IMG/VR virus record: IMGVR_UViG_3300025151_000357
Location: 1 to 21,501 of that record
Reading direction: 5' to 3' (one strand)
Origin: a virus
Length of the DNA stretch: 21,501 nucleotides
The translations under genes and the position numbers were made by a program. This document shows, piece after piece, positions 7,949 to 18,493 of this stretch. Under the pieces are notes generated by a model, which saw nothing but the letters and a program-made list of their open reading frames with translations, made no database searches and was not told the DNA's origin. Position 1 is the stretch's first letter; every line of letters starts with the position of its first letter.

Positions 7949-8025
7949 GAGAACAGGTGTTAGCAGAATACGCAATAAGCCATTAAGTGGATAACTCCTC
8001 TATGAGGGTAATCTGTCCTGTTCTC
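7949..8025 (+). ncRNA. Structured RNA element A, tRNA-sized, closed by a 9-bp stem
   Basis: GAGAACAGG (7949-7957) pairs perfectly with CCTGTTCTC (8017-8025), enclosing 59 nt. One base after the 5' arm comes GTTAGCAGAATAC (7959-7971), nearly the same as in element B at 8419-8488. Inside are two short hairpins, CCA-TTAAG-TGG and CCTC-TAT-GAGG. It fills the gap before the 104-aa gene. It has no tRNA arms or anticodon loop. It could be a leader element, a processing site or a small RNA. Confidence 0.5.
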
Positions 8026-8057
8026 TTTGCTTTAAAGATTTAATTATTGGAGATAAA

Positions 8058-8372
8058 ATGAAAAAAGAAGAATTAAAGGCAGTAGATACATTAAAAGATG
8101 ATGATAACCTTATGGTCAACGTAGCTGTGGATAATTTAGTAGATGAGAAAATTAGGTTAAAAGATGAAATTGATGACTTAAAATATGAAAAGCGTATGTT
8201 ATTAAATATGCTTGAGGATTTAAGAGAGATAGCTCATAAAGGATATAATACCATTAGGTTAAGAGACAACTATGATGATAATAATGTTAGAGATGCTTAT
8301 AATCTTGGTTATGAGTCAGGTGGAGAAGACGCTTATGTTAGAATCATTAAGTATATAAATATGCCTAAGTAA
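8058..8372 (+). CDS. 104-aa coiled-coil protein, unknown function
   Basis: A GGAG site precedes the ATG. The protein is highly charged. Residues about 20-65 form a heptad-like helix (VDNLVDEKIRLKDEIDDLKY and following), and the C-terminal third is Asp/Tyr-rich (LRDNYDDNNVRDAYNLGYES). No catalytic motif is visible. It sits between structured elements A and B and probably has its own leader. Likely a small dimeric early protein; the family is not recognised. Confidence 0.6.
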   Translation: MKKEELKAVDTLKDDDNLMVNVAVDNLVDEKIRLKDEIDDLKYEKRMLLNMLEDLREIAHKGYNTIRLRDNYDDNNVRDAYNLGYESGGEDAYVRIIKYINMPK

Positions 8373-8418
8373 TTTGTAAGAAAATGATAATTAGCGAGTA
8401 TAAAGTATCTGATAAAGT

Positions 8419-8497
8419 CCTATGTTATGTTAGCAACATACATTACTGCCTTCGCTAAGCAGTGATGGAAGAGAATTCTTAACATAGGCAAGAATTC
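8419..8497 (+). ncRNA. Structured RNA element B, with an alternative hairpin
   Basis: CCTATGTTA (8419-8427) pairs with TAACATAGG (8480-8488). As in element A, the motif GTTAGCAACATAC (8429-8441) follows one base after the 5' arm. A second hairpin, ACTGC/GCAGT (8445-8449, 8459-8463), lies inside. GAATTCTT (8473-8480) can instead pair with AAGAATTC (8490-8497), using the 3' arm of the closing stem as its loop. The two structures therefore compete. A further small hairpin, TTCAA/TTGAA, is at 8503-8518. The gap carries no gene. Confidence 0.5.
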
Positions 8498-8555
8498 CTG
8501 CGTTCAAAACCCGTTGAAATCATAGATATGGTGAGATGTAAGACAGGGAAAATTT

Positions 8556-8584
8556 TTGCTGTGTTGTAGTGGTTAATCTACAGT
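8556..8584 (+). promoter_or_regulatory. Weak candidate promoter
   Basis: TTGCTG (8556-8561) and TACAGT (8579-8584) are 17 bp apart, upstream of the 98-aa gene. The -35 box matches consensus at only three positions and the -10 box at four. An ATTGAA/TTCAAT hairpin (8585-8602) lies just downstream. Confidence 0.2.
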
Positions 8585-8651
8585 ATTGAAGTCAAATTCA
8601 ATATCTCTGCTAACCTTAGAGGCACAGCTTAATTTTATAACTGAGGTTAAT

Positions 8652-8948
8652 ATGACTCAAAATAAAAAGTGTCAACACGAATGTTCATGTGGTGACACTC
8701 AAATCAATCATGCTCACGAGTTTCCAGAGTTGGGTTGTGTTTGCCTCACTTGTGGGGAAAACTCTCCACCTTTTGAAGGCTCAGAGCTTGTTATGTACGA
8801 TGAGGAATGCGTGCATAACTTAAAAAAGATGATTCCTCTTATTAATTCAATGAAAACAAGCTTTGACCATGTTCGTGGCGATGTAGAGGCTAGAGAGATA
8901 ATGGTCGCTACTATTAATAAGGCTATTGAAATCATTGAGTTAAAATAA
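8652..8948 (+). CDS. 98-aa Cys-rich, probably zinc-binding protein
   Basis: The ATG at 8652 follows GAGG at 5-nt spacing and is preferred over an upstream in-frame TTG (8586) that falls in a hairpin and lacks a ribosome-binding site. The first 35 residues contain Cys7, Cys11, Cys13, Cys29, Cys31 and Cys34 with three nearby histidines. They resemble a zinc-ribbon-like knuckle (CVCLTCG). The rest is helical and acidic. Phage zinc-ribbon proteins often bind nucleic acid or host polymerase, but nothing here shows which. No known family is recognised. Confidence 0.6.
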   Translation: MTQNKKCQHECSCGDTQINHAHEFPELGCVCLTCGENSPPFEGSELVMYDEECVHNLKKMIPLINSMKTSFDHVRGDVEAREIMVATINKAIEIIELK

Positions 8949-8976
8949 GTTTTGCTTTATTATGCAAGGAGGCTAT

Positions 8977-9030
8977 ATGAGTGATGAAGAAGCTCAATGG
9001 CTAGAAAGCCAAGTTACCAGAGAGTGGTAA
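8977..9030 (+). CDS. 17-aa micropeptide with a strong ribosome-binding site
   Basis: AAGGAGG is placed 4 nt before an ATG that opens a frame of only 17 codons (MSDEEAQWLESQVTREW). The quality of the site suggests real translation. It may act as a leader peptide for the structured stretch that follows rather than as a functional protein. Confidence 0.35.
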   Translation: MSDEEAQWLESQVTREW

Positions 9031-9044
9031 TATTATTTGTAGTA

Positions 9045-9079
9045 TCAAGGTAGTACTAGCGAAGTCCTGAGAACCTTGA
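9045..9079 (+). other. Hairpin element D
   Basis: TCAAGGT (9045-9051) pairs with ACCTTGA (9073-9079) around a 21-nt loop. It is one of two inverted repeats in the 308-bp gap between the 17-aa frame and the next gene. No T-tract follows, so it is not a standard terminator. Confidence 0.35.
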
Positions 9080-9112
9080 CTAAGTTTATTCCAGGAAGTT
9101 AAAAGTAAATAT

Positions 9113-9167
9113 TGTCTAGTGGTGTCGTTTAAATTGCCTTAAATACAGTGGATTCTGTTGCTAGACA
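9113..9167 (+). other. Structured RNA element E
   Basis: TGTCTAG (9113-9119) pairs with CTAGACA (9161-9167), and the stem can be lengthened outwards by A-T and G-U pairs. Inside, TTTAA/TTAAA (9128-9132, 9139-9143) and ACAG/CTGT (9145-9148, 9155-9158) form two further small hairpins. From 9168 to 9338 I see no gene, only a CTAAC/GTTAG hairpin (9181-9196), an A8 run and a TACAAT box (9303-9308) without a convincing -35 partner. Confidence 0.35.
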
Positions 9168-9338
9168 GTAGGCAAACCATCTAACCTCTCAGTTAGTACG
9201 AAAAAAAAGCTACAATCCCCTTCTACCCTATTTATTTCAATCTAAGCTAGACCAAGGACTCCGCATCCACTAGGTTGTTAATGTTTTAGTATTAAACGAG
9301 GGTACAATCTGTTTACAAGTCAGATGAGGGAAAGAATT

Positions 9339-9560
9339 ATGTACAAAAACACTATAAGTGAATTAGATATAATGGTAGATGGAATGGCTGAATACGCTTT
9401 TCCATATTTAGATAAAATATTTGAGGACTATGGTTGGTCTATACAAACAGTTGGTGTTCAACTGTTAATGGATGAGCATGGTTGTCCTCGTAACTTAGCT
9501 GAGCGTCTTTTAGATGCTTGGTCAATTAGAAAGGAAAAACATGATAAGGAAAATGTATAG
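9339..9560 (+). CDS. 73-aa protein, unknown function
   Basis: The ATG at 9339 is chosen because GAGGG lies 8 nt upstream; an in-frame ATG at 9324 overlaps that site and has none of its own. The product is acidic and mostly helical (LDIMVDGMAEYAFPYLDKIF, then CPRNLAERLLDAWSIRKEKH). No family is recognised. Its end overlaps the next gene by 20 nt, so the two are probably co-translated. Confidence 0.6.
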   Translation: MYKNTISELDIMVDGMAEYAFPYLDKIFEDYGWSIQTVGVQLLMDEHGCPRNLAERLLDAWSIRKEKHDKENV

Positions 9561-9927
9561 TGTCAAAGATGCTGATGATTTTAATGAATTAAGTGAAAAA
9601 GATACAGAGCAAATGAAAGACCAATATATGGAATGGTTAACACAATGCCCTTTTTGGTTTTCGACAAGTGTACCTGAGAAAGTAGATAGCTCTCCTTTCC
9701 CTCATAAGAAAGTTATTCTTGAAGTTCATTATCCTGTTGTAAAGAAAGAGGATGGGCTTAAAAGGTATGATGTTCATTATGAAGCTGTTGTGGATGGGTT
9801 CATTGATATAGAAGCAAGAGACTTAGACCATGCTTATGAAGTTGCAGAAGACCATTATGGTGAGTTCATAAGTAATGTAGAATCTTATGATTATGAAATA
9901 GAAGTTCTAGATATTAAGGAGCTTTAA
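9541..9927 (+). CDS. 128-aa protein, unknown function
   Basis: AAGGA precedes the ATG at 9541 by 5 nt; a second ATG at 9553 is also possible. The N-terminal half is charged, with a Trp/Phe-rich patch (WLTQCPFWFSTS). The C-terminal half reads as a small alpha/beta unit: strand YDVHYEAVVDGFIDIEA, helix DLDHAYEVAEDHYGEF, final strand. This pattern resembles small phage domains in which an 'A-x-D-x-x-x-A' helix follows a strand (DpnD/PcfM-like), but the match is too weak to name the protein. Confidence 0.6.
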   Translation: MIRKMYSVKDADDFNELSEKDTEQMKDQYMEWLTQCPFWFSTSVPEKVDSSPFPHKKVILEVHYPVVKKEDGLKRYDVHYEAVVDGFIDIEARDLDHAYEVAEDHYGEFISNVESYDYEIEVLDIKEL

Positions 9928-9928
9928 T

Positions 9929-10003
9929 ATGGCTGTTGCTGGTGTCTCTTTGTTGTTGTTGTGTTTGGTAATGTTTTATTTAATCGTAATAAAGGAGGTT
10001 TAA
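9929..10003 (+). CDS. 24-aa hydrophobic membrane peptide
   Basis: This frame of 24 residues is almost entirely one transmembrane helix (VAGVSLLLLCLVMFYLIVI). AAGGAG at 9917 lies 8 nt upstream inside the previous gene's end, and the stop TAA directly abuts the ATG at 10004. The AAAGGAGG inside its own last codons serves the next gene. The tight packing and good site support translation. Function unknown. Confidence 0.45.
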   Translation: MAVAGVSLLLLCLVMFYLIVIKEV

Positions 10004-10525
10004 ATGGGTTTAGATATGTATCTAACTGCTAGACATTATTATGGTGGTAAATGGCGTAAGAAAGGAGAATGGAACTCTAAACGAGGTCATACATTGTCTA
10101 TTGGTGGCAATTTTGCTAAGAATAGCAATCTAAATGCTGATAACGTGTATGAAATATCTAGTGAAATAGCTTATTGGCGTAAAGCTAATGCCATTCACGG
10201 TTGGTTTGTTGAGAATTGTGCTGATGGCGTTGATAACTGTCAACCTGCGTATGTAACTCATGAGCAATTAGAAAACTTATTAGAGTTATGCAAAGAAGTG
10301 AAAAGGCTTTTGGATGAAAAGAAGTATGATACCGCTGAAGGACTTTTACCGCCTACGCAAGGGTTTTTCTTTGGTCAATATGACACAAGTCACGAATGGT
10401 ATAAAGAAGAAGTCGAAGAAACCATAGATATGTTGGAAGAAATTCTGAGCAACCACAAAGACATAGTTTCCAAACTAGAACCAACTGACTTAGGTGTCAG
10501 TTATTGGTATGAAGCTAGTTGGTAG
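10004..10525 (+). CDS. Conserved phage protein of the MGLDMYL type, function unknown
   Basis: AAAGGAGG stands 5 nt before the ATG. The 173-aa product begins MGLDMYLTARHYYGG. It continues with EIAYWRKANAIHGWFVENC, a DNCQPAYVTHEQLENLLELC segment, then LLPPTQGFFFGQYD and a helix-rich tail. I know this pattern from uncharacterised proteins in many phages and some bacteria: a fixed N-terminus, YWRKAN-IH-WF, and GFFFG followed by an acidic helix. No enzyme activity is established as far as I know. An intrinsic terminator follows, so this is the last gene of the first early transcription unit. Confidence 0.8.
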   Translation: MGLDMYLTARHYYGGKWRKKGEWNSKRGHTLSIGGNFAKNSNLNADNVYEISSEIAYWRKANAIHGWFVENCADGVDNCQPAYVTHEQLENLLELCKEVKRLLDEKKYDTAEGLLPPTQGFFFGQYDTSHEWYKEEVEETIDMLEEILSNHKDIVSKLEPTDLGVSYWYEASW

Positions 10526-10545
10526 ATGCTGTGAGTGGGTAAAAA

Positions 10546-10580
10546 AGGGGGGAGATTTCTCTCCCCTTTAATTGTTTTTT
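10546..10580 (+). terminator. Rho-independent terminator
   Basis: GGGGAGA (10549-10555) pairs with TCTCCCC (10560-10566) around TTTC, extended by G-U and A-T pairs. TTTAATTGTTTTTT follows. It ends the unit that finishes with the gene at 10004-10525, so the next gene needs its own promoter. Confidence 0.85.
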
Positions 10581-10682
10581 ATGTACTTAAACTAGTACAA
10601 ACTTAACTACTTAAACCAAATTTTTCCACATATTTATACTTGTTAAATATGTTAACCTAATTTAACTTACAGGACAATTAAT
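10581..10682 (+). promoter_or_regulatory. Promoter/operator region of the second early unit
   Basis: The gap is very A+T-rich. It holds a TGTAC/GTACA hairpin at its start, three direct repeats of ACTTAAAC-like sequence (10585, 10599, 10607) and an inverted repeat GTTAAAT/ATTTAAC (10642-10648, 10660-10666) centred near GTTAAC (10651-10656). TTGTTA (10640-10645) is a possible -35 box, but I see no -10 box that fits well. A promoter is needed here because a terminator lies just upstream. Confidence 0.35.
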
Positions 10683-11003
10683 ATGAGATTAGAAACCTTA
10701 TTAACTACCGAAACTAAGAATGATTTAATTAAATTCTCCCTTTCCCTTAAACGCAGTAATATAGATATACAGCGTGCATTAGTTAAGGGAGAATATTACG
10801 CAAATGAAATAACTAAAATACGAGCTTTAAGTAAGTATGAGCTTGTTAAGTATATTGAACAATTGCGAAATGATAAAGGTGTCAAACTTGGCACTAAAAT
10901 TGCCCACTCAAGCTCTACAAAGATGTATAGAATGCTAGACAGTAAGATTCGTGAAAAGATGGAATTAATGAATTACGCTAGAAATCGTTTATATGCTTCT
11001 TAA
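10683..11003 (+). CDS. 106-aa basic helical protein, unknown function
   Basis: An AGGA site lies 8 nt before the ATG. The product is basic and appears all-helical: LETLLTTETKNDLIKFSLSL, then IQRALVKGEYYANEITKIRAL, then a C-terminal helix with IREKMELMNYARNRLY. The first part could be a small helix-turn-helix-like bundle, but no clear recognition helix can be pointed to. It is the first gene after a terminator and the next terminator-like hairpin follows directly, so it is probably a single-gene unit. A regulator is possible. Confidence 0.6.
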   Translation: MRLETLLTTETKNDLIKFSLSLKRSNIDIQRALVKGEYYANEITKIRALSKYELVKYIEQLRNDKGVKLGTKIAHSSSTKMYRMLDSKIREKMELMNYARNRLYAS

Positions 11004-11011
11004 TGAAGAGC

Positions 11012-11076
11012 ACCCAAGATACGCCTCCTCCTACCTATCTACAACTACTACATTGGGGGCGTATCTCTTTTTGGGT
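11012..11076 (+). terminator. Long hairpin followed by T-tract, probable terminator
   Basis: A 12-bp stem (11017-11028 with 11055-11066, one G-U) closes a 26-nt loop and is followed by CTTTTT. Outer arms ACCCA (11012-11016) and TGGGT (11072-11076) could pair across the T-run. The loop is larger than usual for an intrinsic terminator, so the element may also act like the structured elements elsewhere in the early region. Confidence 0.6.
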
Positions 11077-11084
11077 CAAGACTT

Positions 11085-11576
11085 ATGAGTAATACAACAA
11101 TTGTCAGGCTAATCAAAGACAGATTAGAACATGGCAAGAAACAATACAAAGAGCAATTAAATGTACATGATGGTCGTAACTGGACTCAAGAAACGCTTGA
11201 GGAAATGTTAGATGCTTGTGTATATCTATCTGCTGAAATAATAAAAAGAAATAGTAAAGCTGTTAAATACAAATACGTAATCACCATGAGAGAGTTTGAT
11301 GGTGAAAACTTCACAATAGTCTATCAACATGATAAAAGCTGGTCGATGAGCAAAGCTTATATAAAAGAAATTTGCTTTTGGCTTGCTCAATCAAAAATTG
11401 ACACTAGTTCTGATTTTGATAAAGACAAAAACAAAGAGTTATTAAACGATGTGCACGTAATAAGTTGTATTGAGTTTAATAACGCTAATGATGAACACGA
11501 AGATTTAGCAAAAAGCGGATGGAATCTGTGGGCACATGACTATTGGGACACTTCTTACGTATTAAGTAGTATGTGA
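11085..11576 (+). CDS. MazG-like N-terminal domain protein
   Basis: Residues 1-55 (VRLIKDRLEHGKKQYKEQLN, then TQETLEEMLDACVYLSAEII) follow the pattern of phage MazG-like pyrophosphohydrolase helices. In those, a basic 'RLxxGxxxY' helix precedes an 'EExLDAxxYL' helix carrying the metal-binding acids. The usual second pair of acidic residues is not evident, so activity is doubtful. Residues 60-163 look like a separate alpha/beta part with several Trp residues and an NNANDEHEDLAKSGW segment. MazG-type enzymes hydrolyse (d)NTPs or alarmones. The gene begins the block leading to the recombination genes. The family call is moderate and the function uncertain. Confidence 0.45.
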   Translation: MSNTTIVRLIKDRLEHGKKQYKEQLNVHDGRNWTQETLEEMLDACVYLSAEIIKRNSKAVKYKYVITMREFDGENFTIVYQHDKSWSMSKAYIKEICFWLAQSKIDTSSDFDKDKNKELLNDVHVISCIEFNNANDEHEDLAKSGWNLWAHDYWDTSYVLSSM

Positions 11577-11582
11577 AAACTG

Positions 11583-11816
11583 ATGAGTAAACAATCAATA
11601 TATGTAAGACATAAAGATGAAATATTTAAAAAGTATAAGGAACATATAGATTTTATGTGGGAGAAAAAAGACAGCGTAGATATAGTTCTACGAGATGGAC
11701 TTATAGTAGGATACAAACAGGCATTAGAATGGGTATTAGGTTTAGATAAAACTCAAGAAGAAAAAGACAAAGAATATGCAAAGACCGACAATAACAAACA
11801 TAAGAAAGATATTTAG
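11583..11816 (+). CDS. 77-aa charged protein, unknown function
   Basis: The protein is helical and strongly charged (HKDEIFKKYKEHIDFMWEKK, then GYKQALEWVLGLDKTQEEKD). It starts 6 nt after the previous stop without a clear ribosome-binding site, and its last 41 nt overlap the next gene in another frame. No family is recognised. The tight packing supports it being real. Confidence 0.55.
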   Translation: MSKQSIYVRHKDEIFKKYKEHIDFMWEKKDSVDIVLRDGLIVGYKQALEWVLGLDKTQEEKDKEYAKTDNNKHKKDI

Positions 11817-11982
11817 TGATGCTGGTGTCCAATTAGGCACTCAGACAGTAAATATGATAGAAAAAGAAATGGTTTTCCTTGCTCAAAGAATGGCACAACG
11901 TTGTGTAGAAGGAAACCTTAAACGATTAACTCCAGAATTATTCTGGGTAGCAATGGGAAGAACAAATGGGTCATCTGATTGA
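11776..11982 (+). CDS. Possible single-domain histone-fold protein
   Basis: The 68 residues can be laid on archaeal histones of the HMf type. A short helix ITNIRKIFSDAG matches 'IgrIiknAG', with AG before loop 1. A long central helix TVNMIEKEMVFLAQRMAQRC ends in a basic loop NLKRLT comparable to the histone RKT loop. A last short helix TPELFWVAMG matches 'kaEDIelA'. The central helix is about one turn shorter than in HMf. If right, it would be a small dimeric DNA-binding protein, as in the bacterial and phage histone families now known. The gene overlaps both neighbours and has a weak ribosome-binding site. The fold is inferred by eye; another helical DNA-binding protein is possible. Confidence 0.45.
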   Translation: MQRPTITNIRKIFSDAGVQLGTQTVNMIEKEMVFLAQRMAQRCVEGNLKRLTPELFWVAMGRTNGSSD

Positions 11983-12964
11983 AAATATGTTCTACTTGGG
12001 TGAGACTCCCTGGCATGGCTTAGGAACGCCATTACAAGAAGTTCCTTCGATAGAAGAAGCGTTAGAGTTGTCTGGTATGAACTTTGAGGTAAAGAAAGTA
12101 CCTACTGTTTATCAAATGTATAATAACGAAGGTGATTATATATTGAAAGACACTGGTCATTTTGTAACAGTTCGCTCTGACACTAATAAACCAATAGGTA
12201 ATGTTGGTAACAAATACGAAGTCTTGCAGAACCGTGATGCTTTTGCACCTTTTGAGGTATTACAAGACTATGGATATAAGTTTGAAACTGCTGGTGTAAT
12301 TGACGAAGGAAAGAAAGTATGGATTCTCGCAAAGACTCCTGACACTTTTCAAGTAGGCGATGATGCAATACAAGGTTTTGTGTTGCTCTACACTTCACAT
12401 GATGGGTCATCAGGTAGTTGTTTTCGTGATACGTCTATTCGTGTTGTATGTAATAATACATTAACGTGGGCATTAAATAAAAAAGGTGGCTATGAGTACA
12501 AATTAAGGCATACCTCTTCTATTAATTCACGAATAAAAGAGCTAACTGATAAAATAAATGAGCATAAAGGAAATGTTTCGTTAGCAATGGACCACATGAA
12601 TCGTTTTGTTGATGTTGAAATGACTCCAGAGTCATTAAAACTGTACATCGAAGCAGTAATGCCTTGGTTAAAGAATAGACATAAAGAATCTGTACCTGAA
12701 CTTGGTATTTTTGTTCGTAACAGGGCAAAACCAGTTTATGATACGATTACTGACCTGTTTTATAACGGGAAAGGAAATAAAGGTCGCACATTGTGGGATG
12801 CGTATAATGCAATTGCTGAATATCACGACCACGTGAAGAACCATAAAGACTGGGTAAAAGGTACTCATTTTGGTGCTTCTCATCGTGATAAGATGAATGC
12901 ATATAGGATTGCCGAAGCGATGGCGAATCATAGTAGTAATAGTGGAATAATCACTTACAATTAA
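11966..12964 (+). CDS. DUF932 (phage/plasmid-like, TIGR03299) protein
   Basis: This 332-aa protein has all landmarks of the family. At the N-terminus is MFYLGETPWHGLGTPLQE, then GNVGNKYEVLQNRDAFAPFE, then a DEGKKVWILAKTP strand. The core FVLLYTSHDGSSGSCFRDTSIRVVCNNTL comes next, and a helical C-terminal third includes GKGNKGRTLWDAYNAIAEY. The family is common on phages and plasmids, often beside annealing proteins and SSB. Its biochemical role is not established to my knowledge. GGAAG lies 5 nt before the ATG, inside the end of the preceding gene (17-nt overlap). It probably belongs functionally to the recombination genes downstream, from which it is separated by only 9 nt. Confidence 0.88.
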   Translation: MGHLIENMFYLGETPWHGLGTPLQEVPSIEEALELSGMNFEVKKVPTVYQMYNNEGDYILKDTGHFVTVRSDTNKPIGNVGNKYEVLQNRDAFAPFEVLQDYGYKFETAGVIDEGKKVWILAKTPDTFQVGDDAIQGFVLLYTSHDGSSGSCFRDTSIRVVCNNTLTWALNKKGGYEYKLRHTSSINSRIKELTDKINEHKGNVSLAMDHMNRFVDVEMTPESLKLYIEAVMPWLKNRHKESVPELGIFVRNRAKPVYDTITDLFYNGKGNKGRTLWDAYNAIAEYHDHVKNHKDWVKGTHFGASHRDKMNAYRIAEAMANHSSNSGIITYN

Positions 12965-12973
12965 GGAGTTGAT

Positions 12974-13792
12974 TTGAACGAAGAAAGAAATCTGTACGCT
13001 TACAGTTTAAGAGATACAGACTATAAACCTTTCGTAGAAAACATTGGGGGAGGAAGCTTTGATGCTTCCTACCTCTCATGGAGTGTATGCTGGGACAACT
13101 TAAAAGAGTTGTTTCCACTTGCAAGACACGAATGGGTTATATACACATATGGAGACAAGCCGTTTGCTGGCATTATGCAACCAGATGGCTCTGTAATTGT
13201 CCATTGTAAAATAACTTACGAAACAGAAGATGGCGATACGTTTGTCCATGATGAATATCTTGCTGTTCGTGATAATAGAAATCAAGCAGTACTAAATCCT
13301 AATTCTGCAGAAATGGAGAATACATATCGTAGGGCACTTGCTAAAGGTGTTTCAACGTTAACTGGGTTTGGTATTGAGTTATGGATGAATGAAGATATTA
13401 AAGAGCTTCAGCGTCCTCAACATACACTGTTAAATGGTAAAAAGCCGACACCTGGTGGGATAACTGTAGACCAAAATGTCTTATTAGACAGATTAATGCG
13501 AGACCCTCTAGCTAATGGTGCAGATAAAAGTAGGCTGAAAAAGATGAAAGACGCTGGCTGGGAAGGTGTTACAGAAGAGGTCGCAACGATTTTAATTGCA
13601 GACGTAAAAGCTGGAATTGCAAGCAATCGTAAGATTACCGAACCAAGAAGAAATAAAGTAATTAAGGCTATTGAAGGTTCTAACCTATCAGATGATAAGC
13701 AAAAGAAAGCTATTGAATGGGTATCAAGTAAAGAAAGGACAAATTTCGATATTGATACCTTTTTGAGTAAAAATAAACTAGAGGAGAAGTAA
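12974..13792 (+). CDS. DUF1071/Sak3-like single-strand annealing protein
   Basis: The start is a TTG at 12974 preceded by a strong AAGGAG at 5-nt spacing; no ATG is suitable. The N-terminal 135 residues match the DUF1071 annealing-protein pattern. They comprise DASYLSWSVCWDNLKELFP, a strand with GSVIVHCKITYETEDGDTF, EYLAVRDNRNQAVLNP, and the helix YRRALAKGVSTLTGFGIELW, which corresponds to the usual 'N..RcLvKalA.fGLGlyiy'. The C-terminal half is Lys-rich and helical and may bind DNA or partners. These proteins anneal complementary strands during phage recombination (Rad52-like). The SSB-like gene follows at once, giving the usual annealase plus SSB pair. Confidence 0.75.
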   Translation: MNEERNLYAYSLRDTDYKPFVENIGGGSFDASYLSWSVCWDNLKELFPLARHEWVIYTYGDKPFAGIMQPDGSVIVHCKITYETEDGDTFVHDEYLAVRDNRNQAVLNPNSAEMENTYRRALAKGVSTLTGFGIELWMNEDIKELQRPQHTLLNGKKPTPGGITVDQNVLLDRLMRDPLANGADKSRLKKMKDAGWEGVTEEVATILIADVKAGIASNRKITEPRRNKVIKAIEGSNLSDDKQKKAIEWVSSKERTNFDIDTFLSKNKLEEK

Positions 13793-14374
13793 ATGCAATT
13801 TACTAATAGTAAAAGTGGAAGTACTGGTGCTTCAAGTAAATTCCCTAAAGGAGTTTATGTTGACTTGTGTACTATCACTAAAGCTGAAAATAGTGAATCA
13901 CAATATAATGATTGTAATATTTTCGTAGAAGCTGAGCCTGTTAAGGGTTATCCTAAGAAATTCTACCTTGGTGGCAATCATCACAAAGATGGTAAAACCA
14001 TGTTAGACTGGGGAAGCAGTAGTAATGACACTAGAGGTGGAAGTTGGAAGGTGTGTCATTTCATTGAAACTGCTACAGGAATGAAACCAAATGAAATAGA
14101 GCTAAACGAAGATGGAACTATTGCACCAGTAACCCTAGGTAGGCTAATAGGTGAACAGGTCTATGTCTTGCAGTACGATTCTAATGGAAAGTACTCTAGA
14201 GAAACATGGTTTTACTTTGGAGATAAAGAAGGTGGTAAAGATTTCTTACTTGATAAGTGGAATGATATGTCACCGCCTAAAGGTTATAAACATCAATCTT
14301 CTAACAAAGCTCTTAATGGACTTTGGAATGAAGGTGCTGAAAAAGAGAAAGCAGAGGCTTCATTGCCGTTCTAA
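13793..14374 (+). CDS. Putative single-stranded DNA-binding protein
   Basis: GAGGAG precedes the ATG, which directly follows the annealase stop. The 193-aa product is strand-rich (GVYVDLCTITKAE, CNIFVEAEPVKGYPKKFYLGG, WKVCHFIETATG, GEQVYVLQYDSNG), as expected for an OB fold. It ends in an acidic tail closing with SLPF. That ending imitates the C-terminal tip (acidic residues then PF) by which bacterial SSBs recruit partners. The position between an annealase and the primase-helicase is the usual place of a phage SSB. It is not a close relative of E. coli SSB. The OB fold is inferred from strand pattern, tail and context. Confidence 0.6.
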   Translation: MQFTNSKSGSTGASSKFPKGVYVDLCTITKAENSESQYNDCNIFVEAEPVKGYPKKFYLGGNHHKDGKTMLDWGSSSNDTRGGSWKVCHFIETATGMKPNEIELNEDGTIAPVTLGRLIGEQVYVLQYDSNGKYSRETWFYFGDKEGGKDFLLDKWNDMSPPKGYKHQSSNKALNGLWNEGAEKEKAEASLPF

Positions 14375-14688
14375 TGGCTTACGATTTTTCAAAAGTTATG
14401 GGTATCAAGGGGCGTAGCAACGAAGCTATGCTCCTTGAATGGTTTAAAAGCAGAAAAGATGCACTCATTGGTGCACATGAAATACAGCTAAATGCCGTTC
14501 AATATATCCGTAATATGTTTAATAAGCCTGTCACGCCAGATACTATATCTAGGTTGTGGAGAAAAATGAGAGAAGACTATCGCAATGACAAAGAGAATTC
14601 AGCTCTTTATCGCAGTGGTCTTAAATATGACGAAGTTATGACTAATCGTGGAACTCAAAAGTACTATAGGGTAACTGATGCAGATTGA
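14374..14688 (+). CDS. 104-aa protein, possible winged-helix type, unknown function
   Basis: The ATG overlaps the previous stop by one base (TAATG), so translation is coupled. The sequence is basic. A helix ALIGAHEIQLNAVQYIRNMF, then a turn KPVTPDTISRLWRKMREDY and a strand TQKYYRV together resemble a winged helix, with TPDTISRLWRKMRE as recognition helix. Such small DNA-binding proteins are common in phage replication cassettes. The family is not recognised, and a role in replication control is only suggested by position. Confidence 0.6.
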   Translation: MAYDFSKVMGIKGRSNEAMLLEWFKSRKDALIGAHEIQLNAVQYIRNMFNKPVTPDTISRLWRKMREDYRNDKENSALYRSGLKYDEVMTNRGTQKYYRVTDAD

Positions 14689-14926
14689 TTATATTAAACT
14701 TCAAAAGAAATGGAATGCCATTGCTAGGGATGTTTTGCTAAATCAAAAGATTGTTGAAGTCTCATATATGTCTGAATTTGAAAAAGATGAAAATATGTGG
14801 CACAATCGCCCTGTTATGTTCAAATTAGAAAATGGTGTTTGGTGTTATCCATCAAGAGATGACGAAGGAAATGACGGTGGTGCATTGTTCGTAACAAATA
14901 GCTTAGGATGTCTGCCAGTACTATGA
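14678..14926 (+). CDS. Small conserved phage protein with DDEGNDGGALF motif
   Basis: This 82-aa protein starts inside the end of the previous gene (11-nt overlap). The C-terminal half has NRPVMFKLENGVWCYPSRD followed by DEGNDGGALFVT. I recognise this motif from short uncharacterised proteins found near replication genes in many tailed phages. They share the plan 'basic helix, strand with YM, RP, PS-D-DEGNDGGAL'. No function is known to me. Its stop is part of an ATGA shared with the possible primase start. Confidence 0.65.
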   Translation: MQIDYIKLQKKWNAIARDVLLNQKIVEVSYMSEFEKDENMWHNRPVMFKLENGVWCYPSRDDEGNDGGALFVTNSLGCLPVL

Positions 14927-16731
14927 GCGATATCCGCATGGTGGAAATTGCTACAGGTCACGTTTCTAATAGGCACCAAGTTGCTAACTTAAACAATATT
15001 AGCAGTTACGTATTTGGTCCAGAACAAAAGAATGAAACCTATCACAGTTGGTATTGTTTTGATGAGCAGTTAAAGCAACACATTGATAGCGTAGGTACTA
15101 TTCAAGGATTTTCTGGAGCATATTACATTAACAGTATCATTTTAGACTTCGATAAGAAGGAACTGAGTAACACTGATTTATATGACTCTGTTCATTGGTT
15201 AGTGAACTTTGAAATGATACAAGACTTGGGCATTAATAAGGATGACATACTTATTTGGTATTCAGGAACTGGTTTCCATATTGAAATGCCAAATATCTTT
15301 GGGTTTACTCCTTCCACTACCTTACCTCAAGTTGTAAAAGAAACTTTGCAGGCAGTATTTCCTAGTTGCGACAATATCTATGATGGGGCACGTTTAATTC
15401 GTGCTCCATTTAGTTATAATGCTAAGAAAGGAAACTTCAAGATTCAATTTACTGTAGACAGTTTTAATGAATGCGATATGGATTCTATTATGTCAGCCAG
15501 TAAAGAAGGATTTGAGCAGGATGATGTTGATGTAGTTAACGCATTGCGTAGTAAATGGGCAAATACAAAGCCTTATATGCAATCGCTAATTGAATATCCC
15601 TCAAGAAGTGTCGCCTCTAAAGAGACTGTTAGAAGTCAATTTAGAATGGACCCTAACTCGGTAGTAACCTGTATGCAAAATGTAATTGCCAATCCTCCAG
15701 TTGAAGGTGAACGAAACGATACGATGATGAGGGTTGGTTCTTGGATGAGGCGTACTGGAATGCCTTTAGAGGTGGTAAAGCATACGTTAAGTACTTGGTC
15801 AGGATTAGGTGCAGAAGCTGAAGAATGTGCTAGTAAGGTATTTGATACTGGGTACGAATATGGTTGTAATGACTATATCATGGCTAAGCATTGTAAACCT
15901 GAATGCATTTACTTCAAGCATAAAGATTATTCATTAGAGCTTAAAAGCATGGATGACATAGCTGATGAATACGCTGAGTTCCTTGAAAAAGACTTTACTA
16001 AAAGTTCGTTTAACTTTGCAGATATTTACGATATGAATCGTGATTTCTGGGTAATGCCTGGTGAACTGGTAATTGTTTCAGGCAATACTGGTATGGGTAA
16101 GTCTACGTGGGTAATGAATCTTGTAACAAAGATACCTCATTTGTCTGTGATGTTTCTATCTTTAGAGAATAATCAGCATATGACAGGAAGAAGGTTTGTA
16201 CAAATGTGCCATAATCTTACAAAAGAAGAGGCAAATAAAGTATATACAGACCCTGTTACAAGAAGAGAACACATGGAGGCTTTCAAGCACGTTCAAGTGA
16301 CAACTGAGCCACCTGAATTGTCAAGGTTAATTGAAGGTATTGCACGAAGTAAACCAAAGGTTGTTGTGATAGATACAAGCGATATGATATGGGTAAAAGG
16401 TATCCATGATGAAATCGCTAAGATGAATCAGATTATCAACTCTCTTAAAGCTGTTGCACAGAAACAAGAATGTATTGTGATTGTTGTACATCACGTAAAT
16501 AAGGAAGCCCAAAGTTCTGGAGTAGTTCGTATGGGTAGCTTAAAAGGTACTAGTAATGTTTCTCAAAAGGCTGACAAGGTTTTGGTAATTAATGGTGAAA
16601 TGCACGAAAGAAGACGAAGTCTTACTACAGAAAAGGCAAGAGATGAAGGATATATGCAGTTGATGTTTGAATTTCAAAAAGACTATTTCAAATTTAAACA
16701 GGTCTCAGGAGAAGGTGGCTTTCATGGTTAA
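14923..16731 (+). CDS. Archaeo-eukaryotic-type primase fused to DnaB-like helicase
   Basis: This 602-aa two-domain replication protein has an N-terminal primase with the signatures of the archaeo-eukaryotic superfamily. They are ILDFD (catalytic Asp75, Asp77), YSGTGFH (Ser114 to His119) and ARLIRAP (Arg157, Arg160). A Cys cluster, GCNDYIMAKHCKPEC, near residues 310-325 probably binds zinc. The C-terminal RecA-type helicase has Walker A GNTGMGKST at 387-395, Walker B VVVIDTSD at 480-487 and a later VIVVHHVNKE sensor-like strand with GS-KGTSNVSQKAD. It would unwind DNA and make primers at the phage fork. The start at 14923 is chosen for the ATGA overlap; an ATG at 14908 is in frame too. The call is strong. 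Confidence 0.88.
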   Translation: MSDIRMVEIATGHVSNRHQVANLNNISSYVFGPEQKNETYHSWYCFDEQLKQHIDSVGTIQGFSGAYYINSIILDFDKKELSNTDLYDSVHWLVNFEMIQDLGINKDDILIWYSGTGFHIEMPNIFGFTPSTTLPQVVKETLQAVFPSCDNIYDGARLIRAPFSYNAKKGNFKIQFTVDSFNECDMDSIMSASKEGFEQDDVDVVNALRSKWANTKPYMQSLIEYPSRSVASKETVRSQFRMDPNSVVTCMQNVIANPPVEGERNDTMMRVGSWMRRTGMPLEVVKHTLSTWSGLGAEAEECASKVFDTGYEYGCNDYIMAKHCKPECIYFKHKDYSLELKSMDDIADEYAEFLEKDFTKSSFNFADIYDMNRDFWVMPGELVIVSGNTGMGKSTWVMNLVTKIPHLSVMFLSLENNQHMTGRRFVQMCHNLTKEEANKVYTDPVTRREHMEAFKHVQVTTEPPELSRLIEGIARSKPKVVVIDTSDMIWVKGIHDEIAKMNQIINSLKAVAQKQECIVIVVHHVNKEAQSSGVVRMGSLKGTSNVSQKADKVLVINGEMHERRRSLTTEKARDEGYMQLMFEFQKDYFKFKQVSGEGGFHG

Positions 16732-16900
16732 GCTAAAGAAACATTCTTCTAACAAAGGAAGGTCAATAAGGTTAGTTCTCCTTTCCTTATTTTCCCTTGA
16801 GCTTGGTTTGCACGATGTTAATGGTATGCATCTTAGTGCTGGATTAGGCGTGGGACCTGTTGAATTCTCCATGAGTTTACATACTTGGGATAAGTGGTAA
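16724..16900 (+). CDS. 58-aa small protein, unknown function
   Basis: The ATG at 16724 overlaps the primase-helicase end by 8 nt, with AAGGTGG 6 nt upstream; a longer in-frame start at 16667 has no site. The N-terminal 15 residues are basic, then comes a hydrophobic stretch SIRLVLLSLFSLELGL and a tail GMHLSAGLGVGPVEFSMSL. It could be a small membrane-attached or secreted peptide, or a beta-hairpin protein. The stop overlaps the next ATG (TAATG). Function unknown. Confidence 0.5.
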   Translation: MVKLKKHSSNKGRSIRLVLLSLFSLELGLHDVNGMHLSAGLGVGPVEFSMSLHTWDKW

Positions 16901-17202
16901 TGTCACATCCAAGTAAAAGAAAAGGTAATGCCTTTGAACGTGAACTTGTAAAATACGCTAAGGGCTGGGGTTTCTCAGCCCGTAGGGCGTGGGGGTCTAA
17001 TGGAAGGTCTTTGGGTATGCATGATGAGGTTGATTGTGTTATTGATGAATTTACAGTACAGGCGAAAAGACGTAAAACACTACCTAAATATCTCAAATGT
17101 GAGCATACTGATATAGTGGCATTCAGAGAAGACAGAGGTACTACCTATGCTCTTATGCCAATGGACTTATTTTTTGATTTAATTAAAAGACTAAAAGGAT
17201 AA
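16900..17202 (+). CDS. Hjc-like Holliday junction resolvase / PD-(D/E)XK nuclease
   Basis: The 100-aa protein starts at the ATG overlapping the previous stop; a GTG at 16894 is also in frame. The plan is that of archaeal-type Hjc enzymes in phages. A basic KRKGNAFERELVKYAKGWGF helix carries the N-terminal acid (Glu13 or Glu15). ARRAWGSNG follows, then the metal-binding acids in HDEVDCVID (Asp42 to Asp45) and the QAKRRK strand (Gln54, Lys56). A final strand-helix is YALMPMDLFFDLI. The usual ExK motif is QxK here, a tolerated variant in this superfamily. It would cut branched DNA before packaging. Confidence is good for the fold and moderate for the substrate. Confidence 0.75.
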   Translation: MSHPSKRKGNAFERELVKYAKGWGFSARRAWGSNGRSLGMHDEVDCVIDEFTVQAKRRKTLPKYLKCEHTDIVAFREDRGTTYALMPMDLFFDLIKRLKG

Positions 17203-17203
17203 T

Positions 17204-17443
17204 ATGAAAAAAATTGAATACGTTAAGCCAATCTTACAAGTAGATATGTTTTTTAAGTTGGCTGACCATTTGTTAAAAGCAGATGATTATGAATTAGTTC
17301 AAATGGGAAGAACAATGAGAAGTACTTACGAAGCTCAAATGATAGAAATTGACATAGAAGAAGAGTCAGAAAGGTTTCAGACTGACACGAAGGACATAGA
17401 GAGTTACAATCCAGCTGATTGTAAGTCAGGAGCGTGTGACTAA
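17204..17443 (+). CDS. 79-aa acidic protein, unknown function
   Basis: It starts one base after the resolvase stop, with AAAGGAT upstream. The product is acidic and helical (VDMFFKLADHLLKADDYELV, then MIEIDIEEESERF) with two Cys at the end (CKSGACD). No family is recognised. A 7-bp hairpin spans its stop codon and a long stretch without genes follows, so this is probably the last gene of the replication block. Confidence 0.6.
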   Translation: MKKIEYVKPILQVDMFFKLADHLLKADDYELVQMGRTMRSTYEAQMIEIDIEEESERFQTDTKDIESYNPADCKSGACD

Positions 17444-17449
17444 CGCTCC
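17429..17449 (+). other. Hairpin across the stop codon of the 79-aa gene
   Basis: GGAGCGT (17429-17435) pairs with ACGCTCC (17443-17449) around a loop holding most of the stop codon. No T-tract follows, so it is not a classic terminator. It may protect the 3' end of the message or mark a processing site before element F. Confidence 0.4.
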
Positions 17450-17458
17450 GTCTATCTC

Positions 17459-17532
17459 AGGGATATGGTTGCTATAGAAAACTTTACTCCATTGGTGTCT
17501 ATACAGCGAATAAACGCCTACGCCATATCCCT
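17459..17532 (+). ncRNA. Structured RNA element F, closed by a 10-bp stem
   Basis: AGGGATATGG (17459-17468) pairs perfectly with CCATATCCCT (17523-17532), enclosing 54 nt. Inside, TATAGA (17473-17478) pairs with TCTATA (17498-17503), and GCG/CGC (17506-17508, 17515-17517) forms a small hairpin, giving a branched fold. The total is 74 nt. No tRNA signature was found. It is the first of three such elements in tandem in the 380-bp gap 17444-17823. Confidence 0.55.
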
Positions 17533-17544
17533 AAGAATTAAAAA

Positions 17545-17620
17545 TGGGTTAGCACTTGTTTAGATTGATGTTTCAAAATATTAACAGACGTGAAATTGAA
17601 AAAATGCAAATGCTAACCCA
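17545..17620 (+). ncRNA. Structured RNA element G, closed by a 10-bp stem
   Basis: TGGGTTAGCA (17545-17554) pairs perfectly with TGCTAACCCA (17611-17620), enclosing 56 nt; the total is 76 nt. The heptamer GTTAGCA, which follows the closing stem in elements A and B, is part of the stem here. Inside, TTTCA/TGAAA (17571-17575, 17591-17595) can pair. It starts 12 nt after element F. Confidence 0.5.
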
Positions 17621-17626
17621 GAAATT

Positions 17627-17801
17627 TAAGGGGATTTATAATAATTACATGAATTTAATTAACATAAACCTGTGAGCCGAACACATAAGCAAGCAGGAAT
17701 TTTGTGAGATGCGTTATTTAATGACAACTTTCGTTCAATGTGTGATAATTAAAAAGCAAATGTATTATACGCAAGGTTGGCACTAAGCATAAATCCCCTT
17801 A
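17627..17801 (+). ncRNA. Large structured RNA element H, closed by a 13-bp stem
   Basis: A perfect 13-bp stem joins 17627-17639 and 17789-17801 across 149 nt. Two further helices nest inside it: TTTAATTA (17654-17661) with TAATTAAA (17746-17753), and ACACAT (17681-17686) with ATGTGT (17738-17743). The coaxial order of three helices is what a folded RNA shows. It starts 6 nt after element G. The ribosome-binding site of the next gene follows the closing stem closely, so it may be a cis-acting leader or a separate small RNA. Confidence 0.55.
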
Positions 17802-17823
17802 CTAACTTAAAATAGGAGTGAAA

Positions 17824-17955
17824 ATGATGTATTATTATTTTCTAGAAATAGCACAAACTCAAGCATTTGATGTCTTGTTTCATTGTGCAGTAGATATTGT
17901 GTTATACTTCTTATTAGTTCAGCGTATAAAACTAGAACTGAGAGGTATAAAATGA
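17824..17955 (+). CDS. 43-aa single-pass membrane protein
   Basis: TAGGAG lies just upstream of the ATG. The protein has an aromatic head (MMYYYFLEIA), a hydrophobic helix (AFDVLFHCAVDIVLYFLLV) and a basic tail (QRIKLELRGIK), giving a likely N-out, C-in inner-membrane orientation. Its stop shares an ATGA with the next gene, which also encodes a membrane protein. The pair could be a holin-like or spanin-like unit or a host-envelope modifier. Sequence alone does not decide. Confidence 0.55.
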   Translation: MMYYYFLEIAQTQAFDVLFHCAVDIVLYFLLVQRIKLELRGIK

Positions 17956-18398: not shown

Positions 18399-18493
18399 AA
18401 AGTAAAGTCTTCTATATCATCTACTAGTAATGGTGCGTAATGGTCTTGTGTTGTTTTCACAGAACTATGACCCAGTAATTTACTAAATTGATT
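18395..18493 (-). pseudogene. C-terminal remnant of a tyrosine recombinase (integrase)
   Basis: On the minus strand, 32 codons followed by TAG lie between two stop signals. They contain SKLLGHSSVKTTQDHYAPLL, which is the final catalytic box of tyrosine recombinases. The His of LGHSS is an active-site residue and the Tyr of HYAP is the nucleophile. Spacing and flanking residues match many phage and bacterial integrases. There is no start codon and no upstream catalytic part; the preceding codons are TAA and the TGA stop of the 541-aa gene, in the same frame. It could be the remains of a lost integrase gene, a captured host fragment, or the 3' part of an integrase gene split by an attachment site. 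Confidence 0.7.

Follow-up and report, generated by a model that had tools for sequence, protein, structure and literature searches.

What are the long inverted repeats between the early genes of an uncultured virus for, if they are for anything? The question is raised by the 21.5-kb virus record IMGVR_UViG_3300025151_000357, the whole of which is referred to here as the window. Its minus strand carries the portal and large terminase genes, and the early region on its plus strand encodes a DUF932-like protein, a Sak-type annealing protein, a primase-helicase, and an Hjc-like nuclease. A preliminary description of this DNA listed eight inverted repeats lying between genes, each closing 35-175 nt, took them to suggest a genome-wide arrangement, and likened them to the RNase III-cut hairpins of T7 early mRNA or to the put antitermination RNAs of phage HK022. 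Here, we present evidence that the early gene gaps do hold stem-closed elements, that several of these are apparently maintained as RNA structures in the sense transcript, and that they behave as interchangeable pieces placed at gene junctions.

The closest relatives of the window are uncultured viral contigs, designated by L numbers, whose primases are 98% (L001), 71-79% (L002-L005), ~61% (L010 and L011), or 44-60% (others) identical to its own. No near cultured phage was found, the best primase being ~25% identical and the best large terminase (TerL) ~27%. Genes of the relatives were called with a simple script, and several contigs are near-duplicates, such that copy counts exceed the number of independent cases.

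All eight inverted repeats were recovered within one base of their described places, and all are intergenic. In eight gaps of the window (1,833 nt) there are six perfect stems of at least 9 bp closing 35-175 nt, where dinucleotide-preserving shuffles (n = 300) give an expectation of 0.86 +/- 0.99 and reach six only once. Three stems are of at least 10 bp, against 0.23 expected, and all three lie in the gap at 17444-17823, for which the shuffles predict 0.05; the earlier impression that this gap is improbably rich in stems was thus well founded. The density of stems of at least 9 bp is 3.27 per kb in gaps and 0.51 per kb in coding sequence. The arrangement also extends, as had been supposed, beyond single gaps: 41 loci of the phage group, some of them near-duplicates of one another, contain 45 stems of at least 10 bp (7.2 expected) and 24 of at least 11 bp (1.6 expected), at 0.98 stems per kb of gap and 0.15 per kb of coding sequence, the gap sequence and stems surveyed being mostly of the early strand. 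Thus, shuffled sequence, the control that the preliminary description had proposed, yields far fewer stems than the real gaps, and the observation that early gene gaps hold stem-closed elements is confirmed. Taken singly, five elements (E1, E2, E5, E6, and E7) also stand out by the z score of their predicted fold, and two (E3 and E4) are weak.

The structures of E6 and E8, two of the three elements in the gap at 17444-17823 (Table 1), were resolved by comparison with related phages. E6 is closed by a 10-bp helix, P1, from which a P2 arm opening with UAU..AUA and a P3 hairpin, GCG-AAUUAA-CGC, branch, and it contains the conserved stretches GUUGCUAU and AUACAGCGAAUUAACGCC. Across 10 phages, 10 of its 17 pairs have changed on both sides, giving a covariation score of 0.48, compared with 0.23 in shuffles, none of 500 of which reaches it; sliding the pairing partners abolishes the signal. 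E8 was identified in 22 loci and lies 3' of the helicase gene wherever this was checked; it has a P1 of 10-16 bp, a variable arm, and GGUUGGC immediately 5' of the second strand of P1. Its closing arms comprise 20 distinct pairs, with 215 Watson-Crick and 5 G-U pairs in 220 cells, a percentage that is inflated because the loci were chosen by motif plus closing stem. Genome position was no criterion in that choice, and in a control a closing stem was present at 23 of 44 sense occurrences of GGTTGGC and at 0 of 4 antisense occurrences. E2, E5, and E7 are likewise retained in relatives with two-sided pair changes, in smaller alignments: three pairs in E2 (kept in L001 and L004), 3 of 9 in E5 (at the same place in L002, L004, L005, and L010), and, by eye, a single stem change in E7 (kept in L002), which is thin support. 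A three-way junction overlooked in the preliminary description, F, shows two-sided changes in 3 of 18 pairs, also in a small alignment. These compensatory changes indicate that E6, E8, E2, and E5 are real RNAs, as is E7 on its slighter evidence.

Two further classes were found in the relatives. An insertion of ~128 nt in L001, at 8955/8956 of the window, is a discrete element, class D, that the window cleanly lacks. It comprises P1, P2 (UAUGGA/UCCAUA), a CU/UGGCU internal loop, P3, and the hairpin GUCU-UGAUGUC-AGAC; 8 of its 27 pairs have changed on both sides, and none of 500 shuffles reaches its score. Class D is carried by 8 contigs, where it stands in four gene contexts; some of these phages have primases only 26-28% identical. 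Its model weakly matches the F elements of L004 and L005 (E-values of 0.0024 and 0.18). E6, D, F, and E8 follow a common plan, in which P1 is succeeded by a variable arm, a small 3' hairpin, and P1', and which may reflect either common descent or convergence. Class G, which was found by inspecting the sequence just 3' of E8 in relatives and is not present in the window, consists of a P1 of ~8 bp, an invariant ACANUA/GACCU internal loop, and P2, the smallest copy being 37 nt. In 23 aligned sequences all 13 pairs show two-sided changes (score 0.767 vs 0.306). The class G model, R3, detects 39 copies at E-values below 3e-8 in the loci searched, some of them in near-duplicate contigs and most being sequences from which R3 was built, plus one copy in L004. 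An antisense class G match in the window (16755-16798) was weak (E-value of 0.63) and was dismissed. The class D core in a Planctomycetota contig, the single result of a scan of genome contigs for that core, was attributed to chance, as it lies in a coding-like stretch and matches by its 15-nt hairpin alone.

The pattern of tolerated changes also identifies the strand on which these structures are kept. RNA tolerates G-U pairs, and the same site read on the other strand is an A-C mismatch. On the coding strand, the combined E6, D, F, E2, G, and E8 alignments, whose pair cells are not independent of one another, contain 35 G-U pairs and 6 A-C mismatches; E8 contributes 5 and 0, and no class shows the opposite bias. 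This excess argues that the shapes are kept in the sense transcript and disfavors a role in DNA. Furthermore, all 40 copies of class G lie on the helicase (early) strand once the loci are oriented, the sole minus-strand row, that of L030, having been oriented by its terminase.

The position of the elements relative to genes is regular. In the gap at 17444-17823, E6 begins 15 nt after the stop codon, a distance that hardly accommodates a separate promoter, adjacent elements are at most 12 nt apart, and E8 ends 22 nt before the next ATG. E6 and E8 abut in L128 and L120, and in L003 the order is E6-D-E8, with class D standing in the place of E7. Class G often starts 5-33 nt after a stop codon, frequently occupies the entire gap, and usually ends 16-36 nt 5' of a start codon, the genes downstream being unrelated and varying by phage. 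E8, when last in its gap, ends 19-28 nt before the next start (9 of 20 cases); in several of the other cases another closed element, such as G, holds the pre-start position. Across the classes, the element that comes last in a gap usually stops 16-36 nt short of a start codon. The gene following E8 varies, and E6 and E8 stay with one operon. The constant link to one gene family that is characteristic of a riboswitch was not found for D and G. Because the downstream genes vary while the spacing to the start codon is regular, the elements behave as interchangeable gene-junction pieces and not as the leader of one gene. E6-E8 lie within a run of plus-strand genes; a scan for a promoter consensus performed no better than on shuffled sequence. 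The array contains no terminator-like site on the plus strand. None of the elements has the G+C-rich hairpin and U run of an intrinsic terminator, and plus-strand sites of this kind occur only at 10544-10569. The hairpin there is strong and readable as a terminator on both strands, L001 has ~700 nt inserted just after it, and it seems to split the early region into two units.

Sequence comparison shows the RNA folds, their conservation, and their sense-strand bias, as well as a placement that does not depend on the neighboring gene. This placement and independence, together with the closing helices, fit cis-acting junction modules. We therefore favor, tentatively and at somewhat less than even confidence, the reading that the early operons carry modular junction RNAs that process, protect, or insulate the mRNA in cis. 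Each element would be an RNA domain shut by its own helix, with a conserved core, either a three-way junction or an internal loop, inside the best-resolved classes. We infer that the elements are most likely co-transcribed in a polycistronic early message, that they would set points at which the message is cut or its decay halts, and that their cores would be recognized. Each downstream segment would gain a folded 5' end just before an open ribosome-binding site, and stability and translation could be set gene by gene, in the manner of T7 early-mRNA processing or of selective RNA processing and stabilization in bacteria.

Several observations weigh against this reading. Processing would not call for two or three different elements side by side in a single gap. 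One class D copy in L101/L197, and one in L004, is without a nearby start codon that has a Shine-Dalgarno sequence. The 3' strand of P1 of F in the window overlaps the probable Shine-Dalgarno sequence of gene 9339, which would allow sequestration. Finally, the invariant cores GGUUGGC and ACANUA/GACCU appear to imply specific recognition or catalysis, which the reading leaves unexplained. Together with GUUGCUAU..AUACAGCGAAUUAACGCC and GGUCUUGAUGUCAGACGC, these conserved unpaired cores go beyond what a plain RNase III-cut duplex requires, and suggest a binding partner or catalysis. A bolder form of the junction-module reading, which we consider rather unlikely, is that at least E6, E8, D/F, and G are interchangeable, previously undescribed RNA domains that act as generic early-gene insulators, some self-cleaving or bound by a phage or host factor, and divide one long transcript into messages under separate control; "previously undescribed" refers here to the open-licence literature, and an earlier description may exist elsewhere. 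If the junction-module reading is right, the elements would add several new structured-RNA families from a marine phage group that has no cultured members, would show how such a phage makes messages of separate stability from a single early transcript, and might be of use as small natural mRNA insulators. The interchange of distinct classes at like places would make convergence of unrelated RNA folds on one job a testable proposition, and the alignments and models of the classes are good enough for bench tests.

In the most concrete version of the junction-module reading, the elements would be strict T7-type RNase III sites, the closing helix being the duplex that is cut and the remainder incidental. 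The T7 early transcript of ~7,000 nt is cut at five such sites (PMC4858673), and the present elements likewise lie between early genes, several to a presumptive transcript, with closing helices of 9-16 bp and variable sequence; E5, a simple long hairpin, looks like such a site. This version is nevertheless rather unlikely, given that unpaired cores and three-way junctions, neither needed for cutting a duplex, are kept in 10-23 phages and that P1 of class G is merely ~8 bp. Alternatively, the elements could be independent trans-acting RNAs, such as decoys or regulators of host machinery, released from the transcript and arranged in arrays resembling tRNA clusters. Elements of different classes do adjoin with no gene between them (E6-E7-E8 in the window, E6-D-E8 in L003, and E6-E8 in L120 and L128), but RNAs of this kind would not be expected to lie at a short, even distance from the start codon that follows, and we regard this proposal as unlikely.

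Quite unlikely, in our judgment, is that some or all of the classes are new self-cleaving ribozymes that cut the message just 5' of every ribosome-binding site, the new end being folded as with a natural ribozyme insulator, even though self-cleavage would unite the core, the independence of the gene, and the position. Catalysis is consistent with the compactness of the domains, with unpaired cores that are invariant and outer arms that vary, and with the lack of dependence on the downstream gene, but a protein-binding site fits the same features, a cleavage site is not deducible, and no Rfam ribozyme family was matched even at permissive thresholds. Antitermination by put-type RNAs that bind RNA polymerase is very unlikely. 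The elements are indeed structured RNAs within early phage transcripts, and the terminator at 10544-10569 would have to be passed if the early region were one transcript, but HK022 put consists of two adjacent stem-loops, ~70 nt in all, near early promoters (PMC9378689), whereas the present elements are many, belong to several classes, have one closing stem, and seem to lie deep in the operon. Lastly, chance inverted repeats or structures acting in DNA, for which the AT-rich genome and the individually unconvincing E3 and E4, which could be of chance origin, might speak, are most improbable in light of the shuffles, the coding controls, the covariation, and the coding-strand bias of G-U over A-C, and little of either idea survives for E6, E8, D, and G.

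Table 1. Stem-closed elements of the window and the genes on either side of the E6-E7-E8 array.
Feature	Positions	Strand	Closing stem	Fold z	Remarks
E1, stem-closed, branched fold	7949..8025	+	9 bp	-3.3	elsewhere only in near-identical L001
E2, stem-closed, conserved loop CUUCGCUAA, inner hairpin UGUUAGCAACA	8419..8488	+	9 bp	-3.4
E3, short closing stem, weak	9045..9079	+	7 bp	-1.5	elsewhere only in L001
E4, closing stem, weak	9110..9170	+	10 bp, one mismatch	-2.1	identical copy in L001, in no other relative
F, three-way junction	9216..9331	+			homologs at L004 4412-4545 and L005 3371-3518
E5, long hairpin between genes 10683 and 11085	11017..11066	+	12 bp, one mismatch	-5.0
Gene 5' of E6-E7-E8 array	17204..17443	+			kept in L001-L004, L010, and L011
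E6, three-way junction RNA	17459..17532	+	10-bp P1	-4.0	10 phages
E7, stem-closed	17545..17620	+	10 bp	-4.3
E8, P1, variable arm, and invariant GGUUGGC beside 3' closing strand	17627..17801	+	13 bp		22 loci
Gene 3' of E6-E7-E8 array	17824..17955	+			start codon 22 nt past E8

Several features of the surrounding sequence were also recorded. The stretch at 8028-8370, which starts directly after E1 and comprises gene 8058-8372 with its leader, is cleanly missing from the otherwise ~95% identical L001. A pattern search for E2 gave matches in the L001 and L004 contigs only. The sequence TTAGCGAG (8391-8398), 5' of E2, is complementary to the E2 apical loop TTCGCTAA (8451-8458) over 8 bp, one of them G-U, and both sequences are retained in L004; the loop could pair instead with UUAGC of E2's own hairpin. 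A stretch of ~900 nt in L004 (2632-3545) apparently has little coding content; TTAAGGC..GCCTTAA, class D, and E2 are among the several stem-closed elements in it. Immediately 5' of E6, at the end of gene 17204 and beyond (17400-17453), are two strong hairpins (z of -4.9), the second of which (GGAGCG..CGCTCC) spans the stop codon of that gene. A further closed element 3' of E8 in L179 (11339-11400) and L193 (11240-11316), with the common core CUUGUCUUAAUGGUGAAAGCUACC, is possibly one more RNA class. At 13500-14553, L001 has a segment of ~970 nt with a tyrosine-integrase-like gene and the attP-like 3' part of a tRNA; in the window, no more than a short piece of the distal end of this segment is left (18399-18493) before the sequence resumes, and either the window lacks most of that gene or it is misassembled there. 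Beside the early region of L010, at 17525-17601, is a tRNA-like sequence (Rfam tRNA model, 32 bits), which is perhaps the integration site of these phages and which, by eye, resembles an alphaproteobacterial tRNA-Val(GAC), a mere hint as to the host.

Searches for known identities were made with the elements themselves. In a covariance-model search, no Rfam family, ribozymes and riboswitches included, matched them; weak matches to STnc40, sraA, and CsrC are located on or around the terminator at 10544. Four elements are 70-77 nt long, and a tRNA-like cluster was considered, but neither ARAGORN nor the Rfam tRNA model detects a tRNA in the window. A BLAST search of 50,697 phage records with E6, D, E8, and G as queries gave nothing beyond short chance matches. 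Integron attC sites were rejected since, by eye, their RYYYAAC/GTTRRRY cores are absent, and kinship with phi29 pRNA, which has a closing helix and three-way junction, was rejected since the large terminase gene of this phage is an ordinary one and the elements are numerous and dispersed.

Five known systems come closest to these elements. Hepatitis delta virus (HDV)-like theta ribozymes of gut phages are also small conserved domains that break up a phage transcript; they are reported to be involved in tRNA-based recoding (PMC10879173), and the present elements match no Rfam ribozyme model. The manA and wcaG RNAs of marine cyanophages are, similarly, conserved structured RNAs in 5' leaders of marine phages (PMC2864571), but they are tied to metabolic gene groups, whereas D and G precede unrelated genes and have no Rfam match. 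HK022 putL and putR resemble the elements in size, in being structured, and in their occurrence in early phage transcripts (PMC9378689). That proposed likeness was not supported: put is one kind of sequence near a promoter, and two adjacent stem-loops were not found here, where E6, D, F, and E8 have one outer helix with inner branches, E5 and G are single hairpins, and the best-resolved elements are single closed domains, mostly three-way junctions, of several classes along one operon. Selective RNA processing and stabilization, as in the Clostridium cip-cel operon with its intergenic processing sites and stem-loops (PMC4423207), offers a parallel in stem-loops that lie between the genes of an operon and may decide what becomes of each segment. 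Those stem-loops are reported to be linked with the 3' ends of genes transcribed at high levels, and the abstract of that account makes no mention of a conserved core; unlike them, the phage elements have cores conserved across phages and end beside the following start codon. The proposed resemblance to T7 survives in part, in that the elements occur group-wide in early gaps, act on available evidence at the RNA level, and are similarly placed. Like the T7 R sites, they are stem-closed, lie in early gene gaps several to a polycistronic message, and stand 5' of the next ribosome-binding site; unlike those sites, they fall into several classes, have three-way junctions and unpaired cores that do not vary, are interchangeable between gaps, and can stand two or three to a gap.

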